Source: Fibrobacter sp. UWB2
GTDB lineage: Bacteria; Fibrobacterota; Fibrobacteria; Fibrobacterales; Fibrobacteraceae
Reading direction: 5' to 3'
Length of the DNA: 64,000 bases
Assembly: GCF_002210425.1 (NCBI RefSeq)
Contig: NZ_MWQK01000001.1
Coordinates: 62,001-126,000, forward strand
Numbering within the stretch: the first letter of the stretch is position 1; each line of letters opens with the position of its first letter. Positions 6,617-24,530 of the stretch are shown one piece after another. The position numbers were made by a program, and so were the translations under genes. Under the pieces are notes generated by a model. It saw only the letters and a program-made list of their open reading frames with translations, was not told where the DNA came from and searched no databases.

Positions 6617-6666
6617 AATTTCCAAGTTTGTAATTTAAAATCAAAAACAACAAAAGGATGCACATT

Positions 6667-9600
6667 ATGATTAAGCAATCATTGAAAGTTGCCTCGCTCG
6701 CCGTCCTCGGCTTGAGCGTTACAGCTGCAATGGCTCAGCCGAAACGTCCGCATCTGGCTGTGTACAAGTTCTTCGATGAACAGTACCGTCCGGGTGGATA
6801 CGATTACTCTTACGGCGGCACGAGCAAGGGTGTCACCATCACCAAGTCTGGTGGTTACAAGTCCAAGGCTGCCTTGAACATCAAGTTGGACCCGAAGGAA
6901 TACTCCGGTGCTTCCATCTGCCTTTACAACGAATTCTTCGACTTGAACAAGTACATGCTCGACTCCAAGGTCGAATTCATGATCAAGGGCAAGCATGGTG
7001 GCGAAGCCGTTAAGGTCGGCCTCCTCGACGAAGAAGTCTCTGACGGCAAGAAGACTCAGGTCGTGCTCCCGATGAACAAGTACATCGAAGGCGGCGCTGT
7101 GACGACGGATTGGAAGAAGGTTTCCATTCCTCTCGTGGACTTCCCGGACCGTGGTCTCTACTGGGACAACACCCGCAAGTCCGAATTCCCGTCTCGTATC
7201 GACTGGGACAAGATTGCTGAAATCCGCTTCTCCATTGACAAGAGCGCTGCAAGCGAATTCGAAGTCTGGGTAGATAACATCGAAATCGTGAAGGGCAACA
7301 AGAAGGCAGCCCCGAAGAAGCAGATGGTCTACTGGGATGAAAACAACGACATCATCGACGGTCCGAAGAATCCGGAAAAGCTCGATGGCAAGGCCAAGAC
7401 GCTCGCTACGTTCTATGACAACCAGGTCAAGGGCTTCTCTTACAGCTACGGTGGTCTCACCGCTCAGCGTGAAGCTCAGTCCAAGACTCCGGGCAACAAG
7501 AACGTGCTCGCCATGTACATCGATAACAACGACTGGTCTGGCGTGACCTACTCTCTCGGTGAAGGCAAGTTCATTGACCTCTCCAAGGTTCGCGACAAGG
7601 GCGGTCTCTACTTCTGGATCAAGGGTAAGCTCGGCGGCGAAAAGCTTTACGTCGGTATCCTCGACAACCAGGGCAACGACATCAAGAGCCAGACCAAGGT
7701 CGGCCTCAACGACTGGATCAAGGTCTCCAAGGATTGGCAGCTCGCCAAGATTCCTCTCAAGCGCTTCACCGACAAGGGTAAGGCTTGGGACGCTAACAAG
7801 TCCGCTGAAGTCGCTAAGGACATCAAGTGGGACAAGATTCAGGAAATCCGCTTCTCTGTTGGCAAGGGCGAAAACGCAGGCGAACCGGGCAAGCCGGCTC
7901 CTGTGACGGTCTTCGTGGACCAGATCACCTTCACGTCCAACATCGACTGGGTGGACCCGGATCTCAAGTGGGATTCCTTCAAGTCCAACGCTCCGGACTA
8001 CGTGATCTCCGACTTCGAAGGCAAGTTTGCCAAGGACAAGTGGGAACCGTCCACCGGTCCGAAGTCTCAGCTCAAGTTCAAGGTTGAAAACTGCGCCGAA
8101 TTCAAGAGCAACTGCTTGAATATCGAACACTACCTCCTTGCTGACTGGGTTGACGTCGTGCTCGACATGCAGAAGAATGGCCGTCCGGCTGCTGACCGTG
8201 ACTGGACCAAGCACTGGGGCCTCATGTTCGACGTGTACTCCGAGAAGGCTTGGCAGTCCATCACCGTTCAGGTTCAGGATGCTGGCAACGAAATCTTCGT
8301 TTCCAACGTCGGTGCTCCGAAGGGCAAAACCACAATCCTCGTTCCGTTCCGTACGTTCGGCAAGTTCCCGTACTATCAACCGCCTAACGCTGTTGAAAAC
8401 GGTCTCTTCGACCTCAAGGGTGTAACTGCTCTCGACTTCAAGCCGAGTGGTGAAGGTACTGCAGGTGGCTTCAAGGTTGACAACATTCGTTTGACCAACC
8501 AGCGCGAAGTCAAGGCTAAGGAACGTCCGGCTGTCATCAAGGTCTTGGTGAAGGGCGAAAAGGATGTCCTCAACCCGAATATCTCTGGTGGCTTGTTCGG
8601 TATCAACGCCGCTCTCTGGGACGGCGACATGCTCGACAACAAGAACTTCAAGGTTCAGACTCGCGAATTTGCAAAGCGCATCAACCACGGCATTATCCGT
8701 TATCCGGGTGGTCTCCGTGCTGATGACGACCACTGGAAGGAAATCCTCGACAACCACGACTGGATGGTCGATACCGACGAATTCCTCGAATGGTTGAAGA
8801 AGACTGGCTCTAACGCCATGTTCACTGTGAACTTCGGTTCTGGCACGGAACAGGAAGCCGCTGCTTGGGTCAAGCACACGAACATCGACAAGAAGGCCGG
8901 CATCCTCTACTGGGAAATCGGTAACGAAATCTACGGTAACTGGCATCCGTATTACGAAAAGTATGGTAAGGACGGCGGTACCATCTATGGTAAGCGCGCT
9001 CGTAAGTTCATCGAAGCCATGAAGAAAGTTGACCCGACCATCAAGGTGGCTGTGCTCGGCGTTCTCGAAGGCGACTGGAACGAAAAGGTCCTTGCTGAAA
9101 CGGGTGACATCGCTGACGGTCTTATCGTCCACCACTACCCGCAGCACTACGGTGAAGAAAACGACTTCGCTATGCTCTCTGCTCCGCAGACCCTCACTGC
9201 AATCTACGAACGTTTGCACAAGGTCGTCGACAAGTGGACTGCAAAGTTCAACAAGAGCAAGAAGATCGAACTCTGGCTCACCGAATGGAACTCTGTTGAC
9301 TTCAACCCGGGTCCACAGACCTTGTCTGTCGAAAACGGCTTGTTCGTCGCTGACTACCTCGGTATGCTCGCTACTGAAAACGTCGACAACGCTCAGTACT
9401 GGGATATCCACAACGACATCACTCCGGAAGGCGGTGACTACGGTTACTTGACCCGTTCTGGTGAAGAATGCATGAACTGCCCGCGCCCGAGCTACTGGGC
9501 ATTCCAGATGGCTTCCGACGCTCTCCGTGGCAAGCTCATGAAGACCACCATCAAGGGTGACGAAGACGCTCTCCTGACCGCTTACTGGACTGTAAACGGC

Positions 9601-9828
9601 AACAAGAAGCAGCTCCTCCTCGTGAACAAGAGCCCGTACAGCGAATTCGACATCAAGCTTGACATTCCGGGCTTCAAGGGCAAGGCCAAGGTCCAGACTT
9701 TGGACAAGACCTCCGAAAAGCTTAAGGAAGGCTGGGCAAATGACCCGTCCAAGAAGGCTAAGACTGTCGATATCTCTAAGGGTATCAAGGTCGGCAAGCG
9801 CACCCTTACTCTCATCACTTTGGAATAA
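6667..9828 (+). CDS. cel51A: Secreted GH51 endoglucanase with N-terminal carbohydrate-binding modules (CelF/Cel51A-like)
   Basis: This 1053-residue secreted protein has a signal peptide with predicted cleavage after AMA (residue 23). Two similar beta-sandwich modules (about residues 30-213 and 238-425) and a third (about 440-622, CBM11-like) precede a glycoside hydrolase clan A catalytic barrel (about 635-975) and a C-terminal beta domain. Predicted acid/base is Glu754 in WEIGNE and nucleophile Glu873 in WLTEWNS, the GH51 pattern. Size and modular order match endoglucanase F (Cel51A) of F. succinogenes, whose N-terminal module is, as I recall, the founding CBM30. It should cut beta-1,4-glucan outside the cell. 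ATG 6667 was chosen over 6658 because AAAGG lies 9 nt before it. Codon use is extremely biased (Lys nearly always AAG), suggesting very high expression. Confidence 0.88.
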   Translation: MIKQSLKVASLAVLGLSVTAAMAQPKRPHLAVYKFFDEQYRPGGYDYSYGGTSKGVTITKSGGYKSKAALNIKLDPKEYSGASICLYNEFFDLNKYMLDSKVEFMIKGKHGGEAVKVGLLDEEVSDGKKTQVVLPMNKYIEGGAVTTDWKKVSIPLVDFPDRGLYWDNTRKSEFPSRIDWDKIAEIRFSIDKSAASEFEVWVDNIEIVKGNKKAAPKKQMVYWDENNDIIDGPKNPEKLDGKAKTLATFYDNQVKGFSYSYGGLTAQREAQSKTPGNKNVLAMYIDNNDWSGVTYSLGEGKFIDLSKVRDKGGLYFWIKGKLGGEKLYVGILDNQGNDIKSQTKVGLNDWIKVSKDWQLAKIPLKRFTDKGKAWDANKSAEVAKDIKWDKIQEIRFSVGKGENAGEPGKPAPVTVFVDQITFTSNIDWVDPDLKWDSFKSNAPDYVISDFEGKFAKDKWEPSTGPKSQLKFKVENCAEFKSNCLNIEHYLLADWVDVVLDMQKNGRPAADRDWTKHWGLMFDVYSEKAWQSITVQVQDAGNEIFVSNVGAPKGKTTILVPFRTFGKFPYYQPPNAVENGLFDLKGVTALDFKPSGEGTAGGFKVDNIRLTNQREVKAKERPAVIKVLVKGEKDVLNPNISGGLFGINAALWDGDMLDNKNFKVQTREFAKRINHGIIRYPGGLRADDDHWKEILDNHDWMVDTDEFLEWLKKTGSNAMFTVNFGSGTEQEAAAWVKHTNIDKKAGILYWEIGNEIYGNWHPYYEKYGKDGGTIYGKRARKFIEAMKKVDPTIKVAVLGVLEGDWNEKVLAETGDIADGLIVHHYPQHYGEENDFAMLSAPQTLTAIYERLHKVVDKWTAKFNKSKKIELWLTEWNSVDFNPGPQTLSVENGLFVADYLGMLATENVDNAQYWDIHNDITPEGGDYGYLTRSGEECMNCPRPSYWAFQMASDALRGKLMKTTIKGDEDALLTAYWTVNGNKKQLLLVNKSPYSEFDIKLDIPGFKGKAKVQTLDKTSEKLKEGWANDPSKKAKTVDISKGIKVGKRTLTLITLE

Positions 9829-9875
9829 GGTGTTGAGCTAAGGCTCGCAAACTAGATTCTCGAAATCTTGAAAAG

Positions 9876-9903
9876 GACTCCGCATTCGTGCGGGGTCTTT
9901 TTT
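9876..9903 (+). terminator. Intrinsic terminator after cel51A
   Basis: GACTCCGCA-TTCG-TGCGGGGTC is followed by a T run. The 9-bp stem includes one G-U pair and a UUCG tetraloop. Confidence 0.93.
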
Positions 9904-9909
9904 ATATTT
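9903..9909 (+). promoter_or_regulatory. Candidate promoter element TATATTT of a leaderless gene
   Basis: TATATTT ends exactly 5 nt before ATG 9915 and directly follows the cellulase terminator. It resembles the -7 element TAnnTTTG of Bacteroidota promoters. This spacing would place the transcription start at or next to the ATG. No ribosome site is present. Confidence 0.5.
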
Positions 9910-9914
9910 AAATT

Positions 9915-11027
9915 ATGAGACTTTGTATAAACCATTTTGTTTGGATTGTTTTTTGTATTCTGCTTGTATCGCATAACGTTTTTGCGGCAGAAGATACCTT
10001 GTGGGCAACGGATTCGTTACGTGCTTATGTGCAAGATGAAAAAACTCGTGCCGAAAAACTCCGCTCTGAAATGCTGAAGGCAATTGTAGAAGACCGCAAT
10101 GAGGACATTAAGCAAATCGCTCGTGATATCGATGATTTTGATCAGTCGTCAATCGCTTATCCGGTATTCCTTACGAGAGAAAAATACCTGTTGAATTATT
10201 TCGTCCATAATTTCGATTTTTGGAGCAATGTTGATTCTGTCGATGTCTTGCGCAATATCGATTATGGTATCAAAGATACTTTGTTTGTGCTTTTGCGTTT
10301 CCATTATGAATCGGCGAAAATAGAGAAAACCCTTAAGAATGTTGAAAATAAAAGCGACCGTGCGTTTATCTATATCGTGCTGAATAGCCTGTTTGAAAAG
10401 CGCGACTTTGCAATGGATCTCTTGCTAAAAAAATACAAGTCGCATTTGACGAATCAAGAACAGCGGACTTATCTTGTTAATCGCTTTGAGATAAATGATC
10501 GTTCTGATGAGGATGTTGATGTGTCAAACACAATTTTTGTTGGTGCTGGAATTGTAAAACCAATGGGCGCTATTGCGGATACATTAAGCGTTATCGGCGT
10601 GGATATTAGCTGTGGGCAGGACTGGATCCGAAAAAATCTCATATATGAGTTGCTTGCCACTATACATTTTTTTAATACCAAGAAACCGCAGTCCTGGCGC
10701 TTTGTGGATTTGGGATTCGATTTTAACTTTGGCTATAAGTTCGTCAGTAAGAATAAATTCAATTTGTTTGGTGCTGCAAACGTAGGTATTGATTTTAATT
10801 ATCTTGGAGACTTAAAAGATGAAAGTGGCAAAAATGTGTCTCCGATTCAATTTTATCCGACTTTTGGCGCAAATTTGATTGGTGATTTATGGGCAAGTAG
10901 TCACTCGGGAGTACGCCTTAGGGTTGGGGTGAGCAATCTCTGGTCCGATAAGGTCGTGAAGTCTTCGGGGGTTCGGCTGTTTGCGACCATCGAGTGGCTA
11001 GTTGATCGAGATAAGGTTATTGAGTAG
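9915..11027 (+). CDS. Family A exported protein, copy 1
   Basis: This 370-residue protein has a signal peptide ending VFA-AED. A helical charged N-terminal half follows (about 30-190), with the family marks RSEMLKAIVEDR, WSNVDSVD and ENKSDRAF. The C-terminal half (about 205-365) has short alternating strands rich in Gly, Tyr and Phe and ends in the family pattern RLRVGVSNLW...SSGVRLFATIEW, which looks like a small outer-membrane barrel. Four copies lie in the window (9915, 11045, 15873, 18661). I do not recognise the family. The next copy starts 17 bp downstream. Codon use is AT-rich and unlike cel51A just upstream. No ribosome site is visible. Confidence 0.75.
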   Translation: MRLCINHFVWIVFCILLVSHNVFAAEDTLWATDSLRAYVQDEKTRAEKLRSEMLKAIVEDRNEDIKQIARDIDDFDQSSIAYPVFLTREKYLLNYFVHNFDFWSNVDSVDVLRNIDYGIKDTLFVLLRFHYESAKIEKTLKNVENKSDRAFIYIVLNSLFEKRDFAMDLLLKKYKSHLTNQEQRTYLVNRFEINDRSDEDVDVSNTIFVGAGIVKPMGAIADTLSVIGVDISCGQDWIRKNLIYELLATIHFFNTKKPQSWRFVDLGFDFNFGYKFVSKNKFNLFGAANVGIDFNYLGDLKDESGKNVSPIQFYPTFGANLIGDLWASSHSGVRLRVGVSNLWSDKVVKSSGVRLFATIEWLVDRDKVIE

Positions 11028-11044: not shown

Positions 11045-12193
11045 ATGTACAAGCTTTTCTTTTACTTTTTTTGCTTGATTCTGTTTTCTCACGGTGTGTG
11101 CGCTGCGGAAAGCGATTTCCGTAAATCCATGAAGCAGGAACAGGAAACGGTCGAGCTTTATCGAGCGCTGATGACGAAGGCTTTGGCCGAAGACCGTATA
11201 GACGACTTGAAATCAATTGTGAAAGAAGCGGAATCGTTTCAGAAAAATGCTAGGGCTTATCCGGTGTTTTATGATATGGAAAAAATGTTGCTCAGTTATT
11301 TCGTTAAGGACTATGAATTTTTGAGCAATGTGGATTCTGTAAAGGATTTTGTGAAACATGGATACTATTACGACCCCTTTCGGGACCTGTTGTATGCGAA
11401 GTTAAAAGCGCTGATAAATTCCGGAAAGCTCAAAGAAACTCTTAAAGATGTCGAAAACGAAAGTGACCGTGCTTTTATTTACCTCTTTCTGAGAGGTTGT
11501 TTCGAAAGCAAGGAAACGATGACGCCGCTGGTTGAAAAGTACAAGTTCCAAGTGACTAAGCGGAAACAGCTTACTTATCTAGTGCGTAGGTTCTGGTTCC
11601 GGAAGGAGTTTGATTTGGAACATTTCTTGGCTGCTTCTGTTGGGGGAGGCCTGGTTGTGCCCTTTGGGTCGTTATCAGACAAGGTCAATCTTGGGGGAGC
11701 GATGGATGTTGCGGTTGACTATATGAGCGATAAGCACTTTTACGAGGGGTTCCTTCTCATAAATGGAAGCGGTGTTGTTAATCCGGATTCCTTGCAGTTC
11801 TTTGATATAGGGTTGATTTTTAATTATGGTTATCGGTTTTTCAAAAAGAAATATCTGAACTTGTACGGTTATGGGAGTGTTGGTCTTGGATTTGATGGAC
11901 TGAACGCTTCTGAAGAAGAGATGAAAAACGGGAATCTCGATTTGCCTTCGCAAGTCTACCCGTCATTGGGTGCAGGGCTTATTGCGGATGTGTTTTTTAC
12001 GGAGGTGAAGAAGGATGGCAATGGTTCGCTTCATGGAATTCGTTTTAGGGCAGGCGTAAAGAACGTCTGGGCGCACAATGCTCTGAAGGCATCGGGGGCT
12101 CGGCTTTTTGTGTCTATAGAATGGATTGTTCACCAGCACTGCGAGGTCCCGGCCAAGTTCGATTACTCGTTTAGAGAAAATTGGACGGAATGA
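11045..12193 (+). CDS. Family A exported protein, copy 2
   Basis: This 382-residue paralogue of copy 1 has a signal peptide ending VCA-AES. The helical half carries RALMTKALAEDR, DYEFLSNVDSV and ENESDRAF. The predicted barrel half contains FDIGLIFNYGYRF, YGYGSVGLGFD and RFRAGVKNVW...KASGARLFVSIEW. It forms a two-gene unit with copy 1 and is followed by a bidirectional terminator shared with the tRNA-Lys genes. The function is unknown. The fold suggests a surface or outer-membrane component. Confidence 0.75.
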   Translation: MYKLFFYFFCLILFSHGVCAAESDFRKSMKQEQETVELYRALMTKALAEDRIDDLKSIVKEAESFQKNARAYPVFYDMEKMLLSYFVKDYEFLSNVDSVKDFVKHGYYYDPFRDLLYAKLKALINSGKLKETLKDVENESDRAFIYLFLRGCFESKETMTPLVEKYKFQVTKRKQLTYLVRRFWFRKEFDLEHFLAASVGGGLVVPFGSLSDKVNLGGAMDVAVDYMSDKHFYEGFLLINGSGVVNPDSLQFFDIGLIFNYGYRFFKKKYLNLYGYGSVGLGFDGLNASEEEMKNGNLDLPSQVYPSLGAGLIADVFFTEVKKDGNGSLHGIRFRAGVKNVWAHNALKASGARLFVSIEWIVHQHCEVPAKFDYSFRENWTE

Positions 12194-12224: not shown

Positions 12225-12226
12225 AG

Positions 12227-12299
<73 letters not shown>

Positions 12300-12450
12300 A
12301 TGATTTGGTCGCCTTTCAGCAATGTCATTTTGCAAAAATCAAAAGCCGCAGTTTCAAAGTTCGTTAGATTCCGCTTTCGCTTTCAAAAACGCTTAGCTTT
12401 GTCTGACGCTTTTGTATTTGCAATACCTTGCCTTTCGGTTTGGTATTTAG

Positions 12451-12523
<73 letters not shown>

Positions 12524-12674
12524 ATGATTTGGTCGCCTTTCAGCAATGTCATTTTGCAAAAATCAAAAGCCGCAGTTTCAAAGTTCGTTAGATTCCGCTT
12601 TCGCTTTCAAAAACGCTTAGCTTTGTCTGACGCTTTTGTATTTGCAATACCTTGCCTTTCGGTTTGGTATTTAG

Positions 12675-12747
<73 letters not shown>

Positions 12748-12902: not shown

Positions 12903-14948
12903 ATGAAAAAAGCGTTTTCTGCCCTTTTATTCACGGTCTTGATGGCTGTGGGTACATTTGTTGCCTGTAGCAATGAATCTAGCGATGAGACTCTCCCAAG
13001 AGAAATCATTACGGAGGTCAACTCGATTTACGAACTTGGAATATGTGGTGATGAAAATGAAGGCGATACAGTTTATGCCAAAAAAGAAGATGCTGATTAC
13101 TATTGCCACAGCGAAAACTGGATTCCTGTTTCCAAGAAAGATTCTTTAAGTTCTGCAAAATCATCTAGTAGCAAGGCCAGTTCCTCGTCCAAGGGTAAGG
13201 ACGAACTCTCGAATTTTACGGAACTCTGTAAGGCTTCCGGTGGTACCGCAAAAGACGGGGCTTGCGTCTGTAACAAGGAACTCTGCGACGTCGGTGCAGT
13301 CTGTAACACAATCACGGGTGTCTGCGGAAACCGTAGCAAGCCCTCCGATATATCTTCGGATTCCAAAAAAAGTTCTTCTTCTGTAGCCGCTTCTTCTGAA
13401 TCTAAGTCTACCTCCTCCTCCTCGGCGTATGCCCCGACCTTTACCGACCTGTGCAAGGCTTCTGGTGGTTCTATGAAAGATGGCGCCTGCGTCTGTAAGG
13501 GTGATGTCTGTGACGAAGGTGCCGTTTGCAACACTGTCACGGGTGCTTGCGGAAACCAGGTCAAGCTCAGCTCATCCTCTGTAGCCGCCTCTTCTGAATC
13601 CAAGTCAAGCTCTTCCTCGGCATCTGCTCCGACCTTCGATGACTTGTGCAAGGCTTCTGGCGGTACCGCGAAAGACGGTGCTTGCGTCTGCAAGGAAACT
13701 GCTTGTGACGAGGGTGTTCTTTGCAATATTAAAAGCAAGGAATGTGCAAACAAAAATGCAATTGAAATTGAATGCAGCGATAGTTTCACGAACTCCTGCT
13801 CTAATAGCCCTGCAAATATCGGTATCGTAAAAGAATGTGTAAAAGGTGTTATTGTGAACCGCTCGTGTGGCTTGGTCTCCTGTAACGAAAAGGGCACGGA
13901 TTGCGGCGAATGCCTCGACAACGTGCAGACCTGCACCGAAGACAAAAACTTCAAGGCGACGGTCACCCGCTGCGAAAAGGGCACGAAGGTGACCGAGAGC
14001 TGTAACGGAAAATCCTGCGACCCGCGCGACAACGGTTGCGGCGAGTGCACGAACTACGAACACACCTGTACCAACGATGACGAAGGAAAGGGAACCGTCT
14101 ACGAGTGCGTCGCCGGCGAAGCTAAGAAAGCCGTTTCCATATGCGGCAACAAGTCGTGCCGTACCGACAAGGCCATCTGCGGCGAATGTCTTAACGGCGA
14201 ACTGAGGTGCGACAACGACATCAACAACAACGCCATCATGTACAGGTGCGTCGACGGGCAATGGGAAAGGCTCCATAACAAGTTCGACCCGCTCGACAAG
14301 GAGTATTACAAATGTCCCGTCGCTTGTAGAGAAGGCTACCCTATAGATAAGATGATAGACCAATGCAACACGGATCAATGTTCTGATTGCGATCCTTGCT
14401 GGGGACGTTCCGAAAGTGGATGGGACGATTTCAATCCCTGCTACAACGAAGAACGTTGCAAGCAAATTCTCAAGGACGAAGACCCCGACTATCCGCCGTT
14501 CAGAAGTTTCGAGACGAAACAGAAATGGAAGGAACTGATTCCTAGTAAAAAGATGGCCGCAAAAACCGTTCACGGGTACAACTGGATGAATCACAAACCA
14601 GTTTCCGATCCTAAAGAACGCGTGGAAAATTTCGAATTCGACCTTACTAACGAGACACGCCGCGTATCGTGCAACGCCCTGGGAACCTACTTCGGAGTTT
14701 GCCACAACTCCCTCCAGACCTGCATCAACACAAGTTATCACGAAGGCGGATTCATGGTGGTCTGCTCCAACGGGGAGCTTGTCGACACCGATGGCAACAA
14801 CGACGGAATCGCTTGCAATTGCGAAATAACGGAAAGCAACGCCAAAGGATGTTGCTACACCAGAAGTGCCTGCTTCAAGTCAACCAACTGGGCTACAGAC
14901 CGCTGCGCTAAGCCCTCAAAAAAAGACGAAGAAGACGTGCTAAAATGA
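12903..14948 (+). CDS. Cys-rich repeat lipoprotein with Ser-rich linkers
   Basis: This is a 681-residue lipoprotein (signal peptide ending FVAC). A Ser-rich linker leads into three near-identical modules of about 39 residues, each with LCKASGG, KDGACVCK and six Cys (about residues 102-140, 180-218 and 241-279), separated by more Ser-rich linkers. About four modules of 45 residues follow, each ending in CGEC or similar (about 285-465). A less regular Cys-rich C-terminal region completes it. Such linkers are typical of Fibrobacter surface proteins. The many paired Cys suggest disulfide-stabilised modules on the cell surface. I recognise no function; substrate binding is possible. The stop codon overlaps the next start by 4 bp (ATGA), so it is coupled to the recombinase. 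Confidence 0.85.
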   Translation: MKKAFSALLFTVLMAVGTFVACSNESSDETLPREIITEVNSIYELGICGDENEGDTVYAKKEDADYYCHSENWIPVSKKDSLSSAKSSSSKASSSSKGKDELSNFTELCKASGGTAKDGACVCNKELCDVGAVCNTITGVCGNRSKPSDISSDSKKSSSSVAASSESKSTSSSSAYAPTFTDLCKASGGSMKDGACVCKGDVCDEGAVCNTVTGACGNQVKLSSSSVAASSESKSSSSSASAPTFDDLCKASGGTAKDGACVCKETACDEGVLCNIKSKECANKNAIEIECSDSFTNSCSNSPANIGIVKECVKGVIVNRSCGLVSCNEKGTDCGECLDNVQTCTEDKNFKATVTRCEKGTKVTESCNGKSCDPRDNGCGECTNYEHTCTNDDEGKGTVYECVAGEAKKAVSICGNKSCRTDKAICGECLNGELRCDNDINNNAIMYRCVDGQWERLHNKFDPLDKEYYKCPVACREGYPIDKMIDQCNTDQCSDCDPCWGRSESGWDDFNPCYNEERCKQILKDEDPDYPPFRSFETKQKWKELIPSKKMAAKTVHGYNWMNHKPVSDPKERVENFEFDLTNETRRVSCNALGTYFGVCHNSLQTCINTSYHEGGFMVVCSNGELVDTDGNNDGIACNCEITESNAKGCCYTRSACFKSTNWATDRCAKPSKKDEEDVLK

Positions 14949-15838
14949 GCCTTAACTCCAACCGTCTAGACGCTTTTCTTTCGCACCTCGGGGTAGAACG
15001 GAATCTATCCCCGGTGACGATTCAAAGCTATCAGGAGGATTTGAGGCATTTTATCGCCTGGCTTGACGAGAACTGTATTGACCTTAAGGACCTGCAGCCC
15101 GAAAAGCTGGACGAATTCTTGACGCTTACGGCGGGGCAGGAGGAATATTCCCCGACATCTGTCGCAAGGCATTTTTCGAGCTTGCGCGGGTTCCTCAAGT
15201 ACATGCAGAACCAGGGCGAGTACGACTACAGCACGGAATCGATGCTTTCGACGCCTAAGCTTGGACATTACCTGCCTCAGTACCTGACTCGTGAAGAAAT
15301 CGACAGCGTTTTTGAGAGTGCAGCGAACGGTAAGAATCCGCTCCGTGATACGGCTTTGATTGAGCTCATGTACAGTGGCGGGCTTCGTATTTCGGAAGCG
15401 CTTGGCATCAAGCTTTCGCAAATTGACCTTGAAAATGAATGGCTCATGCCGATTGGCAAGGGCAATAAGCAGCGTCTTGTACCGCTTGGGAGCAAGGCAA
15501 AGGAAAATCTCCGAGCCTGGATTGAAGAAGGGCGCCCTTTAACGCATCCGACAACGGACAATATCATCCTGAATGCGCATGGTAAGCCGATGAGCCGTAT
15601 GGGCGCCTGGAAAATTGTGCAACTGCATACGATGCACTTGAGCAAACAGGTTTCGCCGCATACGTTCCGCCATAGCTTTGCGACGCACTGCCTGGAGGCG
15701 GGTATGGACTTGCGTGTATTGCAAGAACTGCTCGGCCATGCGGATATCAGCACTACGCAAATTTACACGCACGTCGATAAAGACTTTATCAAGCAAGAAC
15801 ACCGCAGTTTCCATCCGAGGGAGATGGGCGGGAAGTAG
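14945..15838 (+). CDS. Tyrosine recombinase of the XerC/XerD type
   Basis: This 297-residue protein has the two-domain Xer layout. The N-terminal SAM-like DNA-binding domain spans about 1-105 and the catalytic domain about 112-290. All catalytic residues are present: Arg148 in GGLRISE, Lys172, His239 and Arg242 in PHTFRHSFATH, His265 in LLGHADISTTQ and the nucleophile Tyr274. Length and motifs fit a housekeeping XerD/XerC, which resolves chromosome dimers at dif, rather than a phage integrase. It overlaps the upstream lipoprotein gene by 4 bp, an unusual partner. I cannot tell XerC from XerD, nor exclude a dedicated site-specific inversion enzyme. No dif-like site was found here. Confidence 0.88.
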   Translation: MSLNSNRLDAFLSHLGVERNLSPVTIQSYQEDLRHFIAWLDENCIDLKDLQPEKLDEFLTLTAGQEEYSPTSVARHFSSLRGFLKYMQNQGEYDYSTESMLSTPKLGHYLPQYLTREEIDSVFESAANGKNPLRDTALIELMYSGGLRISEALGIKLSQIDLENEWLMPIGKGNKQRLVPLGSKAKENLRAWIEEGRPLTHPTTDNIILNAHGKPMSRMGAWKIVQLHTMHLSKQVSPHTFRHSFATHCLEAGMDLRVLQELLGHADISTTQIYTHVDKDFIKQEHRSFHPREMGGK

Positions 15839-15860
15839 GCTACTTTTTACTAAAACTTTG

Positions 15861-15867
15861 TATATTT
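15861..15867 (+). promoter_or_regulatory. Candidate promoter element TATATTT of a leaderless gene
   Basis: TATATTT ends exactly 5 nt before ATG 15873, the same spacing as at 9903 and 41939. It starts the A-B-A-B operon. Confidence 0.5.
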
Positions 15868-15872
15868 ATCGT

Positions 15873-17102
15873 ATGCGAGTTTGTGTAAAATGTTTTGCTT
15901 TTTTGAGTGCTTTCACGCTGTTTTTTGTGTGTAATGTTTTTGCCGAGGCATCGACTTCGCGCGATTCAGTGATGAACTTGTTTGTTCATGATTATAGAGA
16001 GTCGAATTTCTTGGATTCGTTAAGCGATCTTGAAAAATATGACCCGTCCGAAATGGTAAGGCAAGATATTGACGATGTCAGGTCTTTGCGCATTTCGATG
16101 ATGAATGCGCTAGAACACGATGATATTGACAGCTTGAAAAAGCTAGTAGAGGCGGCCGAGGCTTTTGAAAAGTCATCATCAACGATTGTGATTCACGATG
16201 GCGAAAAGCTTTTGCTGAAATATTTTTTAGGTGACTTTGAATCTCTCTGTAATTTAGACTTTGTATCGCATTACAATAACTGGTATGAACATATTTATGG
16301 AGCGTTCCATCAGGCTCTTTACAATAAAATGCACGAAGAACTGAAGTCCGGAAAGCTTGAAGAAAAACTTGAAAGCATAAAAAACGAAAGCGATAGAAAT
16401 TTTGCTTTTATTGTGTTGAATGGCTACTTCTGTAATAAGGAAAAAACATCAGCGCTGATTGAAGAACGTAAGTACAAGCTGAAAAATCGCAAACAGCTGG
16501 AATACCTTGTGGATACGTATTGGCGAAAAGATGTTTTAGATTCGTCTCGTGCTGCTTCATATTCTGTTGGAGCTTCTTACACAGTTATGTTGGGGAATGT
16601 CTCGAAAAAAGTGGATAATGCTTTTGGCTTATACGCCGGCTCCGGTGCGATAATAGACAATTATTATCTTGAATTCTCGATAAATGGCCATGTGGGGGAT
16701 AACAGCGTTCGCGATTCTCTTTATTTTTTCAATGTCGGGATTGAAGCTAATTTTGGCTATGTATTCCTCAATCAAAAAGATACTCGCTTCAGTGGCTATT
16801 TAACAACTGGCGTAGGTGTAAATACATTTTCTTTCAAGGGCGATAATAGTAAAGAGAAAAAGAAAAGCGATTGGCCAACTCAAGTTTATCCATCGTTTGG
16901 TGGTGGCTTTGCTTTTGATTTTTTCCCCATTGGTTCGTTTGAAAAAAGGGCGGGACTCCGCTTTAGAGCTGGCGTAAAGAATATTTTTAGCGGTAAGACT
17001 GTTCACGCTTCTGGCGTTCGGCTTTATACATCTATTGAGTTTGTGGGGTCTTTGGGTATGCATAAATCGATAAAATTTGATTATCCCAATACGGAGCGTT
17101 AA
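15873..17102 (+). CDS. Family A exported protein, copy 3
   Basis: This 409-residue protein starts at ATG 15873. The frame extends 195 bp further into the recombinase gene, but only this start gives a signal peptide (ending VFA-EAS). Compared with copies 1 and 2 it has about 35 extra residues after the signal peptide, containing SRDSVMNLFV, shared with copy 4. Family marks are KNESDRNF, GVGVNTFSF and RFRAGVKNIFSG...HASGVRLYTSIEF. The stop overlaps the following family B start by one base (TAATG), indicating translational coupling. The predicted structure is a helical domain plus a beta-rich, barrel-like half. Confidence 0.75.
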   Translation: MRVCVKCFAFLSAFTLFFVCNVFAEASTSRDSVMNLFVHDYRESNFLDSLSDLEKYDPSEMVRQDIDDVRSLRISMMNALEHDDIDSLKKLVEAAEAFEKSSSTIVIHDGEKLLLKYFLGDFESLCNLDFVSHYNNWYEHIYGAFHQALYNKMHEELKSGKLEEKLESIKNESDRNFAFIVLNGYFCNKEKTSALIEERKYKLKNRKQLEYLVDTYWRKDVLDSSRAASYSVGASYTVMLGNVSKKVDNAFGLYAGSGAIIDNYYLEFSINGHVGDNSVRDSLYFFNVGIEANFGYVFLNQKDTRFSGYLTTGVGVNTFSFKGDNSKEKKKSDWPTQVYPSFGGGFAFDFFPIGSFEKRAGLRFRAGVKNIFSGKTVHASGVRLYTSIEFVGSLGMHKSIKFDYPNTER

Positions 17103-18658
17103 TGGTTATGATAAGGTTTTTATTTGCGATTTGCTTGATTCTCTTTTCGTACGGATTTTCTTACGACGATGTCATTGTTGATGCCGGATCTGTGGCGAAA
17201 AAGCTGGAAACCGCACCTGTAGCATACTATGGATCGCTGGTCAGTGATAATGGATTTAATCAAGATCAATTAATCAAAATAAATTTTGAAAAAGATTATC
17301 CGCAAGTCCATAAATCTTTTGTGGAATGGTCGGAACTAAAGACTGCCCGTATAAAGCGCGATTTAGCAGAAGCTCCTGAAATTGTCCGCAAGACTTTTAA
17401 TCTACTCTTGAAAAAAGAGTTTACTGGATTTTATATTATCCATAAAATCGTTCGTGTCGATAAAGTTTATAACAAGACTTCGAAGACTTGGGAAAATCCA
17501 AAACCTGAGGATAAGAAAAAAGTCCTAACGCAGTTTGCGTATATTGGCCCGGATATTGTAAGGGATTCCTCTTCGTTTAAATTGATAGAACGAGTGTTGA
17601 CGATCCCTTATATGGGTTCTGAAGATGTTCCGTTGAAACGTGTGTTTTTCATAGACGGCGTCTCGGCTCCGGTTGCTTTTTTAGAGGATCGTTATCTTGA
17701 AAATGTACAGTTTTTCCCATATCGCTTGAATTACACTGTTGAACCGAACTACGCTATTGAAATCCGTGAACGTATGGAAAAACTCGTGAGTGATGGGGCG
17801 TATAAGGCGGCTACACTTTTGGCCGATTCGGCGGACTTGTCTCTACATTCAAAAGCTCTTTTGAAGTTCTTGAGTGAGGATTATGATTTTATTGCAAATG
17901 AAGATTCTCTATCGGATTATTGGGTGACTCAAAATAGCTACAATTACGAGGATGGTTTGGATCATCTTTTAAAATGGGTTGGAAAAAGAATTTATCGTGA
18001 AAAATTCAGATGCGAAGATTTGCCAAAGTTCCCTGACCGTGATAATGAATTACTTTGCGTCACTATCGAAAATATTGCTTTAGGGAAGTATCCTGGGGAA
18101 ACTATCAAAAGAATAAACGGGGTTGGAATTGCTTTAGGTGGAGATTTGGGTATTCCATTCTTGGTGGGCGATTTCCCCGATTATAAACCATTCCTTTATT
18201 TTGATGTTGGCTTTGGGGTGCGCATATATGATGTTGTCGTAGCCTTTGAATTTACTAGCCGTGCCATGGATGCAAAATGCGATTCCTGTGGTAATTTTGA
18301 CTATGGAATCCAATCAAGACTTGGCTATCGCTTATTTGAAACTAAGTATTTTGAAGGCGTTGCATTTGTAAATGTTGGTGGCGCATTTTATGTTGTTCCC
18401 GATAAAGAAGATGAAAAGCGAAAGAATAAGCAGGAAGGCTATTTCCGCTATGGGGCGGGCGCGTATGTAGATTTGCTGGTCCCGAGTTTTGTCGGAAAAC
18501 AAATGCCTGAGGGAGACCCGCTTGCGGGGCGTGTCGCATTCCGCTTGAAGGCGGGATTTCATAATATGAAAGCGTCGAAATATGGCCATGCTGATGGAAT
18601 TTCTCCCTATATTTCGCTTGGCTTATGGATTCGCGGAGATTTTGTGGGTAGTCGTTAG
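17102..18658 (+). CDS. Family B exported protein, copy 1
   Basis: This 518-residue protein has a signal peptide ending near GFS-YDD. An N-terminal region of about 200 residues starts VAKKLETAPVAYYGS and is shared only with the gene at 19902. A middle segment (RERMEKLVSDGAYKAATLLADSADLS, then EDYDFIANEDS) resembles the helical core of family A. The C-terminal beta-rich part contains a CDSCG motif and ends in Gly-rich strands. A and B therefore appear to share a core, B carrying an extra N-terminal domain. The function is unknown. It is one base into the upstream stop and 2 bp from the next gene. ATG 17108 is an alternative start. Confidence 0.72.
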   Translation: MVMIRFLFAICLILFSYGFSYDDVIVDAGSVAKKLETAPVAYYGSLVSDNGFNQDQLIKINFEKDYPQVHKSFVEWSELKTARIKRDLAEAPEIVRKTFNLLLKKEFTGFYIIHKIVRVDKVYNKTSKTWENPKPEDKKKVLTQFAYIGPDIVRDSSSFKLIERVLTIPYMGSEDVPLKRVFFIDGVSAPVAFLEDRYLENVQFFPYRLNYTVEPNYAIEIRERMEKLVSDGAYKAATLLADSADLSLHSKALLKFLSEDYDFIANEDSLSDYWVTQNSYNYEDGLDHLLKWVGKRIYREKFRCEDLPKFPDRDNELLCVTIENIALGKYPGETIKRINGVGIALGGDLGIPFLVGDFPDYKPFLYFDVGFGVRIYDVVVAFEFTSRAMDAKCDSCGNFDYGIQSRLGYRLFETKYFEGVAFVNVGGAFYVVPDKEDEKRKNKQEGYFRYGAGAYVDLLVPSFVGKQMPEGDPLAGRVAFRLKAGFHNMKASKYGHADGISPYISLGLWIRGDFVGSR

Positions 18659-18660
18659 GG

Positions 18661-19884
18661 ATGAATTCAAAATTTTATATAGTTTTGAGTTTGCTTTGTG
18701 TGTTGCTTATGCCGTTCGGTATTTATGCTGCCGCGAACTCAGAAAAAACGGTTTCGCTAGATTCGGTAATGAATTTATTTGTTCAGAATACGGATGAATC
18801 GACTATAGAACCTGATTCTGCAGTACTGGCCCAAAGAGCGCTTTACCTGAAATTTTTGAAAGAAAAGGCCGAAGCCGATTCGCTTCGAAGTGCGATGCAA
18901 GTTACATTAGCCGAGAAACGCTATGGAGATTTCAAGAAGATTGTTGATGAGGCGGAAACCTTCGAACGGGCTTGCCCTCCGCATCAGGTGATTTGGAATA
19001 GTGAAAAACTTTGGGTAAAGTATTTTGCCAATGATTTTGCATTTTTAAGTAATATCGATTCGGTGGATTCTTATAAGCACACCACTTCTCGATATGGCTT
19101 TTACGCTGATTTGTTTCGTTCTGAGATTGAATTAGGAATGTTTGATAAAAGCCTTGAAGAAATCGAAAATGAAAGCGACCGAACTTTTATACGTCTTTTG
19201 CTTTTGAAAATGATAGATCCCAAGAGTAATATTTCAGATTTGATTTTAAAGAATAAGTCGAAAATTACAAAAACAGATCAAATGCATTATCTTGTTGAAA
19301 ATTATTGGGATATGACTGCTCTTGATGAACGTAGCTATTTTGGCATTTTTCTAGGTGTTCCTTATTCGCTGTATTTGGGCAATATTTCAAAACACGTTAA
19401 GTCTAGCTTTGGAACCAAATACGGCTTGAATGGCTCTTTAGGCTTTGATTTTGTCTTTGATAACTTTTTACATGAATTGAGTATAGACTTTAATTATGGT
19501 GGATATAAGGATGTAGATTCTTTATACTTTTATGATTCGAATGTTGATTATAATTTGGGCTATACATTCTTGAACATGGAATACTTGCGCTTATATGGCT
19601 TTATATCGATTGGCGTGGGTATAAATCAGTTGTTTTGTGAAAACTATGAAGACGATGCGTGCCCAGATAAAAAAGTGAACCATTATTTTTCGTATGGCGC
19701 TGGTGGTATGGCTGATGTACTTTTCACAAAAAGACGTCAAATCCAGTTTGGAGTTCGCCTAAGGACTGGGATCAACAATGTTTGGGCTGATGACCTTTTG
19801 AATGCTTCTGGACACAGATTTTACGCTTCTGTTGAATTCCTTTTTCTTTATTATAAAGAAAAGAAACTGAAATTTGAATATTGA
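18661..19884 (+). CDS. Family A exported protein, copy 4
   Basis: This 407-residue protein has a signal peptide ending IYA-AAN. Like copy 3 it has the SLDSVMNLFV insert after the signal peptide, so 3 and 4 form a subgroup distinct from 1 and 2. Family marks are FAFLSNIDSVDS, ENESDRTF, YGFISIGVGIN and RLRTGINNVW...NASGHRFYASVEF. It follows family B copy 1 by 2 bp and precedes family B copy 2 by 17 bp, completing an A-B-A-B order. The sequence is AT-rich. The function is unknown. Confidence 0.75.
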   Translation: MNSKFYIVLSLLCVLLMPFGIYAAANSEKTVSLDSVMNLFVQNTDESTIEPDSAVLAQRALYLKFLKEKAEADSLRSAMQVTLAEKRYGDFKKIVDEAETFERACPPHQVIWNSEKLWVKYFANDFAFLSNIDSVDSYKHTTSRYGFYADLFRSEIELGMFDKSLEEIENESDRTFIRLLLLKMIDPKSNISDLILKNKSKITKTDQMHYLVENYWDMTALDERSYFGIFLGVPYSLYLGNISKHVKSSFGTKYGLNGSLGFDFVFDNFLHELSIDFNYGGYKDVDSLYFYDSNVDYNLGYTFLNMEYLRLYGFISIGVGINQLFCENYEDDACPDKKVNHYFSYGAGGMADVLFTKRRQIQFGVRLRTGINNVWADDLLNASGHRFYASVEFLFLYYKEKKLKFEY

Positions 19885-19901
19885 AATGGTGAAATATTTG
19901 T

Positions 19902-21452
19902 ATGACCATGAGAAAAATAATTGTCTTATTGTTGTTGCTTTTGCTCCATAGCTATGCTGAAGAATCGGTTGCTCAGAAACTAGAAAAGGCTCCGATTGCC
20001 TATTATGGCGCGAACCTTGAAAGTGTTCTTTATTCGATAGATGACAAGCAGAAACTTGAATTGAAGTTGGCAAAGAATTACCCTGAAGTTTACAAGACTT
20101 TTATCGGTTGGGCCGATTACAAGCAAAAATTGTTGAACGAACGTTTGGATCAAGCTCCCGAAAAATACCGCCACGTATTTGAGAAAAGAAATGCGGCGAT
20201 GGAACAACATGGATTTTTCCTAGTACATAATTTAGTTCTTGTTGAAAAAATCTATGACAAGAACTCGAAAACATGGATTTCTCCAAAACCTGAAGAGGCT
20301 AGAAAAAGCCTGTTTTATATGGCTTATGTCGGTGTAGATATTTCGAAGGATTCTACTTGGAAAATTTCTCAAAGATTGATAAGTCTTTTGCCAAACGATG
20401 ATAATCAAATTCTTGGTAACGTGGGTAAAAAAAGAATATTTTTCCTTGATGGATTTTCTCAGGAGTGCGATGATTTGACGGAATCGTCAACCTTGGAAAA
20501 CCTGCATTATCATCCGGTTCGTTTAAAGTACGATGTCCCTGAAAATCCGGCTGTGAAAATCCGAGAAAAGATGCAGACGCTTGTAGAACAAGGTGATTAT
20601 GAGTCTGCAGCTGTTTTGGCGGATTCGGCAGATTTGTCGCCTCGCTCCAAAATTATCATTAAAATTTTAAATCGTGATTATGAATTTGTTGAGAATAAAG
20701 ATTCGACAATGTACTATTTGGATAACTATAATGATTTTTATTATGTCGATAAACTAGATTCTGTCTTGGATAGGGCTGTTTTTAGCATGTATGAAAAAGA
20801 TCCGTATTGCGATATTGTAGAAAAAGTTGCTTTGTATAAAAAGCCTGTGCCGATTTATACTAAAGAGGATAATGCTAATCTAAATAGCTCTATTGATATT
20901 GGACGGCCAACTTTGAAGGGTGATTTCCCGAATTATGATCCATTGCTTTATGTAGGAATCAATTTAAATTTTTCTATGGAACCGTGGGTTTTCGGGATTG
21001 AATGGACTTTTCACGTCTTAGAGTCTCGATGCGATTCTTGTGGGAAACTTGATATTGGAATTCAGGGATTATTGGGTTTTTTGTGGTTGAAATCTAAATA
21101 TATAGAAGGTGTTGTCTTTGGTAATTTGGGCTCTGCTAGCTTTGTATATGGGGATGCTTATATCCGCTATGGGGTTGGAACCTATTTTGATTTACTTTTT
21201 CCAAGCTATATAGGGAAACCAGTTTCATCAACCAAAGAAAAAAAACGTTATGGTGTACGGTTGAAATTAGGTTTGCTTAATATGAATAATACGAAGCGAG
21301 GGCGTGCCCAGGGTATTTTGCCTTATGTTTCTCTTGGCTTTACTTGGCGTTGGGTTTGGGGAATGGAATCGACATTTGAACCATCTTATAGACCGAGAAA
21401 GTATAATTTGACTGATCGCTCAACGGAACTGGATTATGTCGATATTGACTGA
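19902..21452 (+). CDS. Family B exported protein, copy 2
   Basis: This 516-residue paralogue of the gene at 17102 aligns along its whole length: VAQKLEKAPIAYYGA, a NSKTWISPKPEE stretch matching TSKTWENPKPED, REKMQTLVEQGDYESAAVLADSADLS, RDYEFVENKDS and a CDSCG motif in the beta-rich C-terminal half. The signal peptide is poly-Leu, ending SYA-EES. A charged tail (STELDYVDID) extends beyond the paralogue. No ribosome site is visible. It is probably cotranscribed with the copies upstream and the small barrel gene 27 bp downstream. Confidence 0.72.
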   Translation: MTMRKIIVLLLLLLLHSYAEESVAQKLEKAPIAYYGANLESVLYSIDDKQKLELKLAKNYPEVYKTFIGWADYKQKLLNERLDQAPEKYRHVFEKRNAAMEQHGFFLVHNLVLVEKIYDKNSKTWISPKPEEARKSLFYMAYVGVDISKDSTWKISQRLISLLPNDDNQILGNVGKKRIFFLDGFSQECDDLTESSTLENLHYHPVRLKYDVPENPAVKIREKMQTLVEQGDYESAAVLADSADLSPRSKIIIKILNRDYEFVENKDSTMYYLDNYNDFYYVDKLDSVLDRAVFSMYEKDPYCDIVEKVALYKKPVPIYTKEDNANLNSSIDIGRPTLKGDFPNYDPLLYVGINLNFSMEPWVFGIEWTFHVLESRCDSCGKLDIGIQGLLGFLWLKSKYIEGVVFGNLGSASFVYGDAYIRYGVGTYFDLLFPSYIGKPVSSTKEKKRYGVRLKLGLLNMNNTKRGRAQGILPYVSLGFTWRWVWGMESTFEPSYRPRKYNLTDRSTELDYVDID

Positions 21453-21479
21453 ATGGTGAATTTTCTAAATTAGTGGAAT

Positions 21480-22097
21480 ATGAAGCGCCTCCTCGTTTTA
21501 TTGATGCTTGCATTGTCAGTGGCTGTTTCGGCAACTTGGGCCGGACCGCTTTCTGCTCCGTTTACGCACGACGGGCTGTTTGCAAATGCGTCAATGGGAA
21601 TGGGGTATGCGTCTTTTGAAAATGCCGATGGTGAGGAATCCTTGACGGCAAATGGTTTCGGTGCAAGGATTCATGGAAAACTTGGTTTTTATGTCGTGCA
21701 GGATTTGGCGTTGCATGCGAATTTGGGATACGTGATGTATTCTAATTTCCAAGAGGCGCGCTATGGACTTCCGACTTATATGGATCACGATTTTTACGTG
21801 CTGAGTTCCGTTTATTTAGGCGTTGGCGCAACGTATTATGTACCCGGGTGGAACAATGTGTTTATTAGCGGGGCATTGGGCTTGACGGGTTATAACCTGA
21901 ATTGCCATAAATATTCTGGGAATACGGGGCTCAGTGCGCTTAGCTTTGATATTGAAGTGGGCAAGGACTGGTGGGTTGGTGAACATACCGCTATTGGGGT
22001 GTCGCTGGCCTATAATTCGGGTGAATACTGGTCCGATGACGATGGCGTATTCCGCTCGTCTTCCGTGATGCTTTTGTTCTCGGTGACGCTCAATTAA
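21480..22097 (+). CDS. Small outer-membrane beta-barrel protein
   Basis: This 205-residue protein has a signal peptide ending TWA-GPL. About eight alternating amphipathic strands rich in Gly, Tyr and Val follow (for example NASMGMGYASF, IHGKLGFYVV, SSVYLGVGATYYV, TAIGVSLAYNSGEYW), and the last strand VMLLFSVTLN ends at the stop. This is the size and pattern of an eight-stranded OmpA-like or OmpW-like barrel without a periplasmic domain. It is the last gene of the A-B-A-B unit. It may be the outer-membrane partner of those proteins, which is inference from position. Confidence 0.78.
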   Translation: MKRLLVLLMLALSVAVSATWAGPLSAPFTHDGLFANASMGMGYASFENADGEESLTANGFGARIHGKLGFYVVQDLALHANLGYVMYSNFQEARYGLPTYMDHDFYVLSSVYLGVGATYYVPGWNNVFISGALGLTGYNLNCHKYSGNTGLSALSFDIEVGKDWWVGEHTAIGVSLAYNSGEYWSDDDGVFRSSSVMLLFSVTLN

Positions 22098-22187: not shown

Positions 22188-24404
22188 TTATCTCTCGAGC
22201 TTGAAGTAGACTGCTGCAAGAGGCGGAAGCTTGATGTTCAAGCTCCACTGGCGATTCTGCCACGGAATGTCTTGCGTCCAGACTTCACCGAGATTGCCGA
22301 CGTTAGAGCCTCCGAACATGGCTGCATCGGTGTTGAAAATTTCTTTCCAAGCACCGCGAGCAGGTGCGCCCAAACGGTAATCGTTACGGACAACTGGCGT
22401 GAAGTTGAATACGCAGAGAATCATGTTGCCGTGGTCATCTTTACGGACGAAGCTTACGATGGAATTGTCGGCATCGTCGCACCAAATCCATTCAAAGCCG
22501 GTGTAGTAATGGTCGATTTCCCACAACGGAGCATTTTCCTTGTAGATGTGGTTCAAGACCTTCATCATTTCGAGGAGCTTGCCGTGGCTATCCCAGCTGA
22601 CCAAGTGCCAGTCAAGCGAACGCTTTTCGTTCCATTCGCGGAACTGACCGAATTCGTTGCCCATGAAGTTGAGCTTCTTGCCCGGGTGTGCGTACTGGAA
22701 TGCGTAGGTGAGGCGGAGGTTTGCAAACTTCTGCCAGTTGTCGCCAGGCATCTTGCCGAGCATGGAACCCTTGCCGTGCACCACTTCGTCATGGCTGAAA
22801 ACTTGTATGAAGTTTTCAGAATAAGCGTAGACCATGCTGAATGTAAGCTGGTTGTGGTGGTACTTGCGGTGGATTGGTTCGTGCTGGATGTAGGAGAGGA
22901 AGTCGTTCATCCAACCCATGTTCCACTTGTAGTGGAAGCCGAGACCGCCCTGCTCTGGCGGGCGAGTGATGCTCGGGAAGCTTGTCGATTCCTCGGCGAT
23001 GAGGATGGCATGCGGGGTCAAGCGACCCATGATGCTGTTCAAGTGCTTCAGGAATTCGAGCGTGTCGTAGTTGATGTTGCCGCCGTCCTTGTTCGGTACC
23101 CATTCGCCCGGGCCCTTACCGTAGTCGAGGTAAAGCATGGATGCAACAGCGTCGACGCGGAGACCGTCGCAGTGGAATTCCTTGAGCCAGTACATCGCGT
23201 TTGCGATGAGGAAGTTCTTGACTTCGTTACGGCCGAGGTTAAAGATGTATGTGCCCCAGTGCGGGTGTTCGCCCTGACGCGGGTCGGCGTGCTCGTAGCA
23301 GGCGGTGCCGTCGAAACGTCCGAGAGCGTGAGCATCCTTCGGGAAGTGGGCCGGAACCCAGTCCAAAATCACGCCAATTTCGTTCTGGTGGCAAAGGTCC
23401 ACAAAGTGGCGGAACTGGTCCGGCGTACCGTAGCGGCTCGTGGGGGAGTAGTAACCGGTAACCTGGTAGCCCCAGGATTCGTCGAGCGGGTGTTCGGCGA
23501 GCGGCAAGAATTCCACGTGCGTGTATCCCATTTCCTTGAGGTACGGGATGAGGCGTTCGGAGAGTTCATCCCAGTTGAGGAAACGGTCCGGATTAGCCGG
23601 GTCGCGACGCCAGGAACCGGCGTGGACTTCGTAAATGTTCATCGGAGCGCCAAAGACCTTTGTGGCCCAGTGCGTCTTCATGTAAAGATCATCGCCCCAT
23701 TCGTAACCGTCGAGGTGTGTTGTGATGGAGGCTGTTGCCGGGCGGACTTCGGCGAGCTTTGCAAGCGGGTCCACCTTCACATGGAGGTTCCCGTCGGCGC
23801 CGTGAATTTCAAAACGGTAGAGTTCGTTTTCACCAAGATTCGGAATGAAGATTTCCCAAATGCCCGAGGCACCGAGCATGCGCATCTGGTGACGGCGGCC
23901 GTCCCAGCTGTTGAAGTTGCCGACCACAGAAACGGCACGAGCGTTCGGAGCCCAAACGGCAAAGTGTACGCCCTTGAATCCCTGGTGCTCGATGAGGTTA
24001 GCGCCGAGCTTGCGGTAAAGTTCGTAGTGCGTGCCTGTTGCAATCAGGTGGCGGTCAAAGTCGCTGAGGACCGGCAAGAATGCATACGGATCGACGAGAG
24101 TGTATTCGATGCCGTCGCCCTGCTTGATGATGAGCTTGTAAAAGAACGGCTTGTATTCCAAGTCGAGGATTGCTTCGAAAAATCCAGTGTCGCCAAGCTT
24201 CACAAAATCAAATTCTTCAGTGCCGTCGCACGATTCACCGCGGATAAAGCTAGCCTGCGGCTGGTAGGTGCGGATGACGGTCTTGATCCCTCGATCGGTT
24301 TCGAGCGGGTGGATACCTAAAATTGAAAACGGGTCTTTAGTCTTGAAGTCCCAAATTGCCTGCATGTTTTCTGCGGTCAGGCTCGTGAAATCGTTCCATT
24401 CCAT
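22188..24404 (-). CDS. glgB: 1,4-alpha-glucan branching enzyme GlgB
   Basis: GlgB introduces alpha-1,6 branches during glycogen synthesis, consistent with the glycogen stores of Fibrobacter. The 738-residue protein has two N-terminal beta-sandwich regions (CBM48 type, to about residue 230) and a GH13 barrel. The catalytic Asp is in DGLRVDAVASMLY, Glu in AEESTSFP and the transition-state Asp in FSHDEVVHGKGSM. A C-terminal all-beta domain follows. Length is normal for the long GlgB class. The reading frame can begin at GTG 24416, but Met at 24404 (MEWNDFTS) is preferred. It stands alone, between the hairpin repeat and a divergent thioesterase gene. Confidence 0.96.
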   Translation of the reverse strand: MEWNDFTSLTAENMQAIWDFKTKDPFSILGIHPLETDRGIKTVIRTYQPQASFIRGESCDGTEEFDFVKLGDTGFFEAILDLEYKPFFYKLIIKQGDGIEYTLVDPYAFLPVLSDFDRHLIATGTHYELYRKLGANLIEHQGFKGVHFAVWAPNARAVSVVGNFNSWDGRRHQMRMLGASGIWEIFIPNLGENELYRFEIHGADGNLHVKVDPLAKLAEVRPATASITTHLDGYEWGDDLYMKTHWATKVFGAPMNIYEVHAGSWRRDPANPDRFLNWDELSERLIPYLKEMGYTHVEFLPLAEHPLDESWGYQVTGYYSPTSRYGTPDQFRHFVDLCHQNEIGVILDWVPAHFPKDAHALGRFDGTACYEHADPRQGEHPHWGTYIFNLGRNEVKNFLIANAMYWLKEFHCDGLRVDAVASMLYLDYGKGPGEWVPNKDGGNINYDTLEFLKHLNSIMGRLTPHAILIAEESTSFPSITRPPEQGGLGFHYKWNMGWMNDFLSYIQHEPIHRKYHHNQLTFSMVYAYSENFIQVFSHDEVVHGKGSMLGKMPGDNWQKFANLRLTYAFQYAHPGKKLNFMGNEFGQFREWNEKRSLDWHLVSWDSHGKLLEMMKVLNHIYKENAPLWEIDHYYTGFEWIWCDDADNSIVSFVRKDDHGNMILCVFNFTPVVRNDYRLGAPARGAWKEIFNTDAAMFGGSNVGNLGEVWTQDIPWQNRQWSLNIKLPPLAAVYFKLER

Positions 24405-24530
24405 AGATTTTCTCACTTAATGTTTTAACGCAAAGAAAAATAACATAAAATGGGAATGTTATGCGAATAATTGCAATAAAAACCGTAATATTTGGATTAT
24501 TATTACATTTGTATCGAATGGAGGCTTACA

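Follow-up and report, generated by a model that had tools for sequence, protein, structure and literature searches.

In herbivore guts, Fibrobacter is among the principal degraders of cellulose, and the way in which its outer membrane binds and handles this substrate is still debated. In the stretch of DNA analysed here, 64,000 nucleotides of a contig of Fibrobacter sp. UWB2 (the window; positions are counted from its first letter), a cel51A-type cellulase gene has among its neighbours a run of exported proteins of two kinds, A and B, in the order A-B-A-B, followed by a small barrel protein. The initial annotation saw in them two unrelated-looking but locally similar families, perhaps arisen as a duplicated cassette, strictly coupled and possibly acting with the barrel on the cell surface. 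The question is what A and B are, whether they belong together, and how they came to stand at this place.

Organization of the locus

The five exported ORFs lie where the initial annotation had placed them (Table 1), and an ORF check reproduced both their order and their spacing exactly: a 1-base overlap between A1 and B1, followed by gaps of 2, 17 and 27 bp. The marks by which the proteins had been described, namely NESDR, SGxR(L/F), CDSCG and a segment D-Y/F-x-F..N.DS, are each present in the sequences. Two A paralogues upstream, A3 and A4, had been overlooked; they stand back to back and lack a B. When the window's own genome was searched, A3 and A4 were the additional A genes that came up, and no B appeared beyond B1 and B2. 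The whole neighbourhood reads: a DsbA-type gene, the cel51A-type cellulase gene, A3, A4, three tRNA-Lys genes, a gene for a Ser-/Cys-rich exported protein, a XerC/D-type recombinase gene, A1, B1, A2, B2, the small barrel gene and, on the opposite strand, glgB. Between cel51A and A3 lies a hairpin followed by a T-run (9869-9904).

Table 1. Features of the locus in the window.
Feature	Position	Strand	Description
cel51A-type cellulase gene	6658-9828	+	conserved left flank; Pfam: CBM30, CBM30, CBM11, GH51-like
A3	9915-11027	+	A-family gene without B; from the search of the window's own genome
A4	11045-12193	+	A-family gene, no B; clusters with A3 and type III A genes
Promoter-like element TTTGTATATTTATCGT	15857-15872	+	TATATT ends 6 nt upstream of the A1 start
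A1 (type I)	15873-17102	+	409 aa; signal peptide, disordered linker, helical module 58-216, barrel 220-399
B1 (type I)	17102-18658	+	518 aa; signal peptide, N-domain 31-213, helical module 218-327, barrel 337-516
A2 (type II)	18661-19884	+	407 aa; 65% identity to A of genome G128
B2 (type II)	19902-21452	+	516 aa; 68% identity to B of genome G128
Small barrel protein	21480-22097	+	205 aa; OMP_b-brl-like, under the Pfam cut-off
glgB-type branching enzyme gene	22188-24416	-	conserved right flank; named from sequence; 94-100% identity among relatives

The three tRNA-Lys (CTT) genes (12226-12747, minus strand) are embedded in a 224-bp tandem repeat, of which the small ORFs at 12300-12485 and 12524-12709 are antisense by-products. 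The product of the ORF at 12903-14948 is exported and rich in Ser, contains the pattern LCKASGG..DGACVC..C three times and is 82-88% identical in three other genomes. This ORF overlaps by 4 bp the XerC/D-type gene (14945-15838), which scores highest among the Xer-type recombinases of the genome (292 bits), the second one (244 bits) lying on contig C4.

The counterpart of the cel51A-type gene in strain S85 is Fisuc_3111/FSU_0382, and the adjoining DsbA gene is Fisuc_3112/FSU_0383. Both products, the former with CBM30, CBM11 and GH51 and the latter a DsbA, are listed for the S85 cell envelope (PMC4619616), and Fisuc_3111 is reported to have the highest mean expression of the CAZyme genes in that strain (PMC6204037). 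For the neighbouring S85 tags FSU_0379-0381/Fisuc_3108-3110 no mention was found in the open-licence literature, nor any proteomic or expression link to A or B.

Upstream of A1, the position of the promoter-like element TTTGTATATTTATCGT (Table 1) may leave the transcript nearly leaderless. The motif TTTGTATATT occurs 27 times in the 39 fetched loci and the window, and heads 14 A genes (A1 and 13 others). Since the internal genes A2 and A4 have no TTTGTATATT, the pattern fits a single transcript starting at A1. As a dedicated A promoter the motif is a weakened candidate, because it is found before other genes too, including a lipoprotein-like gene of the island that has an identical leader and no detectable homology to A. 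Exported proteins of about 240 aa, likewise with no detectable A homology (L082:5884-6708, L084:13006-13821, L089:6521-7246 and L091:9987-10715), have the promoter-like motif and first codons nearly those of some A genes, as if the two kinds of gene had come to have common 5′ ends through recombination.

A and B belong to one superfamily

Within each kind, the local copies are related far above chance (A1 and A2, 33% identity, E 2e-56; B1 and B2, 38%, E 2e-105). A and B had seemed to be two families without relationship, and this view did not hold. A1 matches the end of B1 already in BLAST (E 1e-5), the A profile detects B and vice versa, and comparison by hhalign of the two profiles, built from 27 A and 24 B sequences, gave a probability of 98.9% and an E-value of 1.2e-17 over 296 columns spanning the helical module and the barrel, the same two parts that AlphaFold predicts in both. 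The two are separate branches of a single superfamily.

That the proteins are unrecognised was confirmed, as searches of Pfam, NCBIfam, PADLOC and PDB sequences gave no family covering A or B. Known anti-phage defence proteins were considered and rejected, since none of A1-A4, B1, B2, the small barrel and the ORF at 12903 matched a PADLOC model at E 0.01. Strong matches were confined to the window's genus among the 168 genomes of the phylum that were searched. An alignment-based contig scan returned 13 loci, all from Fibrobacter; the scan with B2 as lone query gave no match. The superfamily takes other forms as well. A short B variant of about 440 aa does not have the helical module, and elsewhere in the genus, proteins of about 600 aa combine the two kinds of region, several having a relative of some 365 aa encoded after them. 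Such long-short pairs (L104:9134-12023, L099:7551-10472 and L101:7051-9880), with the long protein first and so in reverse order, adjoin a carboxylase-domain protein. A 428-aa protein at L095:8734-10020 matches the N-domain and helical part of B only, with no barrel match.

Predicted architecture and comparison with known barrels

AlphaFold models were made from alignments of the window and the fetched Fibrobacter contigs, which were shallow (16 sequences for A1 and 15 for B1). The A1 model (mean pLDDT 80.6) has a disordered linker, helices and then eight strands, and the B1 model (pLDDT 79.4) an alpha/beta domain, helices and eight strands, at the residues given in Table 1; the pTM of 0.62 and 0.50, respectively, leaves the arrangement of the domains unsure. 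A is thus predicted to consist of a helical module and a barrel, and B of an N-domain, a helical module and a barrel. Both models have the eight-stranded outer-membrane barrel fold, with Z 15-18 to OmpA, NspA and OmpW. These three are the best structural matches of the barrels: for A with Z 17-18 and 3.1-3.5 Å over 153-166 residues, and for B with Z 17.6 and 2.3 Å over 151 residues of NspA. All structural matches reported for A1 and B1 concern the barrel region, and the periplasmic modules may yet have a known fold. In an even-stranded barrel both termini are expected in the periplasm, and the N-terminal parts of A and B would therefore face this compartment. Short extracellular loops are predicted, and those of B are no more variable than the remainder: in type I B the loops are 82% conserved and the barrel strands 73%. 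Across all B, the best-conserved large part is the N-domain (52%). A CDSC pair in a predicted extracellular loop, which is the CDSCG of B1, is kept in 21 of the 24 B sequences; of the 16 full-length ones, 15 also retain another Cys pair, located in the helical module.

Like OmpA and OprF, A and B join an eight-stranded barrel of the same type to a periplasmic domain, but the order is reversed, with the periplasmic part first and the barrel last; moreover, Pfam detects in A or B no C-terminal peptidoglycan-binding domain of the OmpA family. NspA, OmpX/Ail, OmpW and the small barrels of PF13505 have the barrel fold in common with A and B but not the large N-terminal periplasmic modules, and no A or B member comes near the PF13505 cut-off (best E 0.0096, in one A member). 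BcsC-like exporters, with a periplasmic helical part ahead of a C-terminal barrel, follow the same general layout, and Foldseek lists BcsC among the matches of B, though a weak one (TM 0.14); their barrels, however, are 16-stranded pores, in contrast to the eight strands of A and B.

Pairing and co-inheritance of A and B

In the 26 fetched loci and the window, 27 A, 16 full-length B and 8 short B genes were counted. The expectation that A and B always occur in pairs stood for one side only: every full-length B (16/16) lies directly 3′ of an A, whereas nine of the 27 A genes, including A3 and A4, have no B, and six of the eight short B genes have no A. Since these nine and six stand alone, neither A nor B strictly needs the other, and the coupling, which had been called strict, is one-sided. 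Eighteen A genes are followed by a B or a short B, and the junctions are eight ATGA overlaps, two TAATG, five 2-nt gaps and three gaps of 8-19 bp; in the five 2-nt cases the start codon lies 2 nt past the stop, and the -29 of the ORF caller corresponds to an upstream start.

Where both are present, A and B are inherited as a unit. Their distances correlate with r 0.946 over 18 pairs; in ten genomes A and B reach r 0.97, whereas B with the small barrel gives 0.45 and Cel51A with either A or B gives 0.61-0.69. For directly consecutive genes alone, r is 0.99 for A and B and 0.65 for B and the barrel. The A and B trees recover the same main cassette types (I, II, III and some more). In type I, A1 and B1 group with five other genomes (support 95/94 for A and 100/100 for B), and in type II, A2 and B2 group with G128 (100/99 and 100/100), G067 and G137 being nearby. 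Type III has a short or a long B, and A3 and A4 stand beside its A genes. A recent duplication of an A-B cassette, as first suggested, is contradicted by these trees because each local pair groups with orthologues of other genomes and the two pairs are not each other's closest relatives; as far as the trees indicate, they represent two old lineages.

The small barrel, which had been proposed as a possible partner, behaves differently. It matches PF13505 (OMP_b-brl) with E 4e-4 and a score of 21, under the cut-off of 28.7. It occurs without A in five genomes (G104, G105, G130, G063 and G111), and three genomes with A-B (G067, G137 and G102) have no close homologue of it. Together with the correlations above, this suggests a neighbour rather than a co-inherited partner.

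Divergence of the cassettes between conserved flanks

The stretch between cel51A and glgB was compared with eight genomes in which Cel51A is 94-99% identical to that of the window and A and B are present. In the closest relatives, Cel51A and GlgB are 94-100% identical and A1 and B1 only 34-63%; over the eight genomes, identity to the best local match is 34-46% for A1 and 39-62% for B1. For one genome pair, dS is 0.09 for Cel51A versus 1.63 for A1 and 1.75 for B1; overall the cassette values are 1.6-2.0 versus 0.09-0.18 for Cel51A, and as values above about 1 are saturated, the contrast alone is usable. The XerC/D-type gene reaches 0.38-0.81 to the relatives. A reverse mosaic is seen between G101 and G066, with dS 0.09 for A1, 0.15 for B1 and 0.60 for XerD. 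GC content is 36-40% from A1 to B2 versus 52-55% in XerD, Cel51A and GlgB. Omega of A and B is 0.13-0.28, and positive selection as the cause of their divergence was rejected on this ground. Exchange of whole cassettes by recombination in the conserved flanks appears to be the best explanation, judging from these comparisons, and the divergence may also reflect differential retention of old copies. Cel51A itself is independent of the cassettes, since it is present in 73 of the 80 genomes of the genus. At L070:13824 (minus strand), an A-type leader TTGTATATTGGTCCTATGCTCCGTTGC has no A gene called behind it and is possibly the remnant of a lost cassette.

Discussion

The explanation that we favour, and hold to be somewhat more probable than its negation, is that A and B are an exchangeable pair of outer-membrane proteins, Sec-exported and held by C-terminal barrels, with their working parts in the periplasm and a role as anchor or receptor. 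Prediction and comparison supply the architecture, the homology, the pairing statistics, the purifying selection and the exchange-like divergence, and from these we infer the topology, the complex and the anchor or receptor role with cassette-specific partners. After Sec export, each protein would insert through its eight-stranded barrel, leaving the helical module of A, and the alpha/beta domain and helical module of B, in the periplasm. As A and B would usually be translated in a coupled manner and are passed on together as matched partners, the most likely arrangement is a hetero-oligomer embedded in the outer membrane, with the working parts toward the periplasm. The cel51A-glgB stretch would serve as an exchange site, at which recombination in the conserved genes on either side lets Fibrobacter species swap the old cassette lineages (types I, II, III and others), B being at times shortened or lost. 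The more specific proposal, that matched A-B heterodimers whose periplasmic domains recognise cassette-specific partners are shuffled between species beside cel51A, in a previously undescribed system, is put forward only tentatively.

A and B could instead be nothing more than paralogues that diverge within a barrel family of this genus, set side by side by tandem duplication and forming no complex, with a paired inheritance that merely results from neighbours being transferred together. They are homologous, A stands alone nine times and a short B six times, A3 and A4 are consecutive in the window, and conserved adjacency also results from the co-transfer of neighbours. Against this, full-length B is always found with A, coupling by codon overlap is kept across deep divergence, and the nearby small barrel tracks B far less well, so that we regard this reading as rather doubtful. 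Strong divergence and exchange beside highly conserved flanks, a situation familiar from surface loci of other bacteria, might also point to a variable surface, in which cassettes are exchanged as an antigen-like escape because phages, grazers or competitors recognise the exposed parts. This was not chosen because the predicted outer loops, short as they are, are not hypervariable, and with omega low throughout it seems improbable.

The initial annotation had proposed a three-part complex in which A, B and the small barrel act jointly on the cell surface. The A-B-barrel order indeed recurs in seven other genomes (L070, L071, L074, L076, L077, L081 and L082), but the barrel and the A-B pair each occur without the other, the barrel distances correlate weakly and the bulk of A and B outside the barrels is predicted to be periplasmic, which makes joint action of the three less probable still. 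Least credible, with hardly any chance of being right, is that B acts in the outer membrane as a PagL-type enzyme, removing acyl chains from lipid A. One of the 24 B members touches Pfam PagL (E 0.0056), and PagL is among the structural matches of the barrel (Z 14.4), but many small barrels match at a similar level. For the catalytic His-Ser pair of PagL, the B alignment has no conserved His-x-Ser, nor a conserved His-x-Ser-Asn motif, and the nearest His, in the GHAxGxSP stretch close to the last strands, is replaced by Arg in B2.

A paired, genus-specific outer-membrane family beside cel51A thus provides concrete and testable envelope proteins, which standard annotation leaves unnamed. Most of the small barrels known so far work as single proteins, so matched pairs of them that are shuffled between species would be an unusual design.
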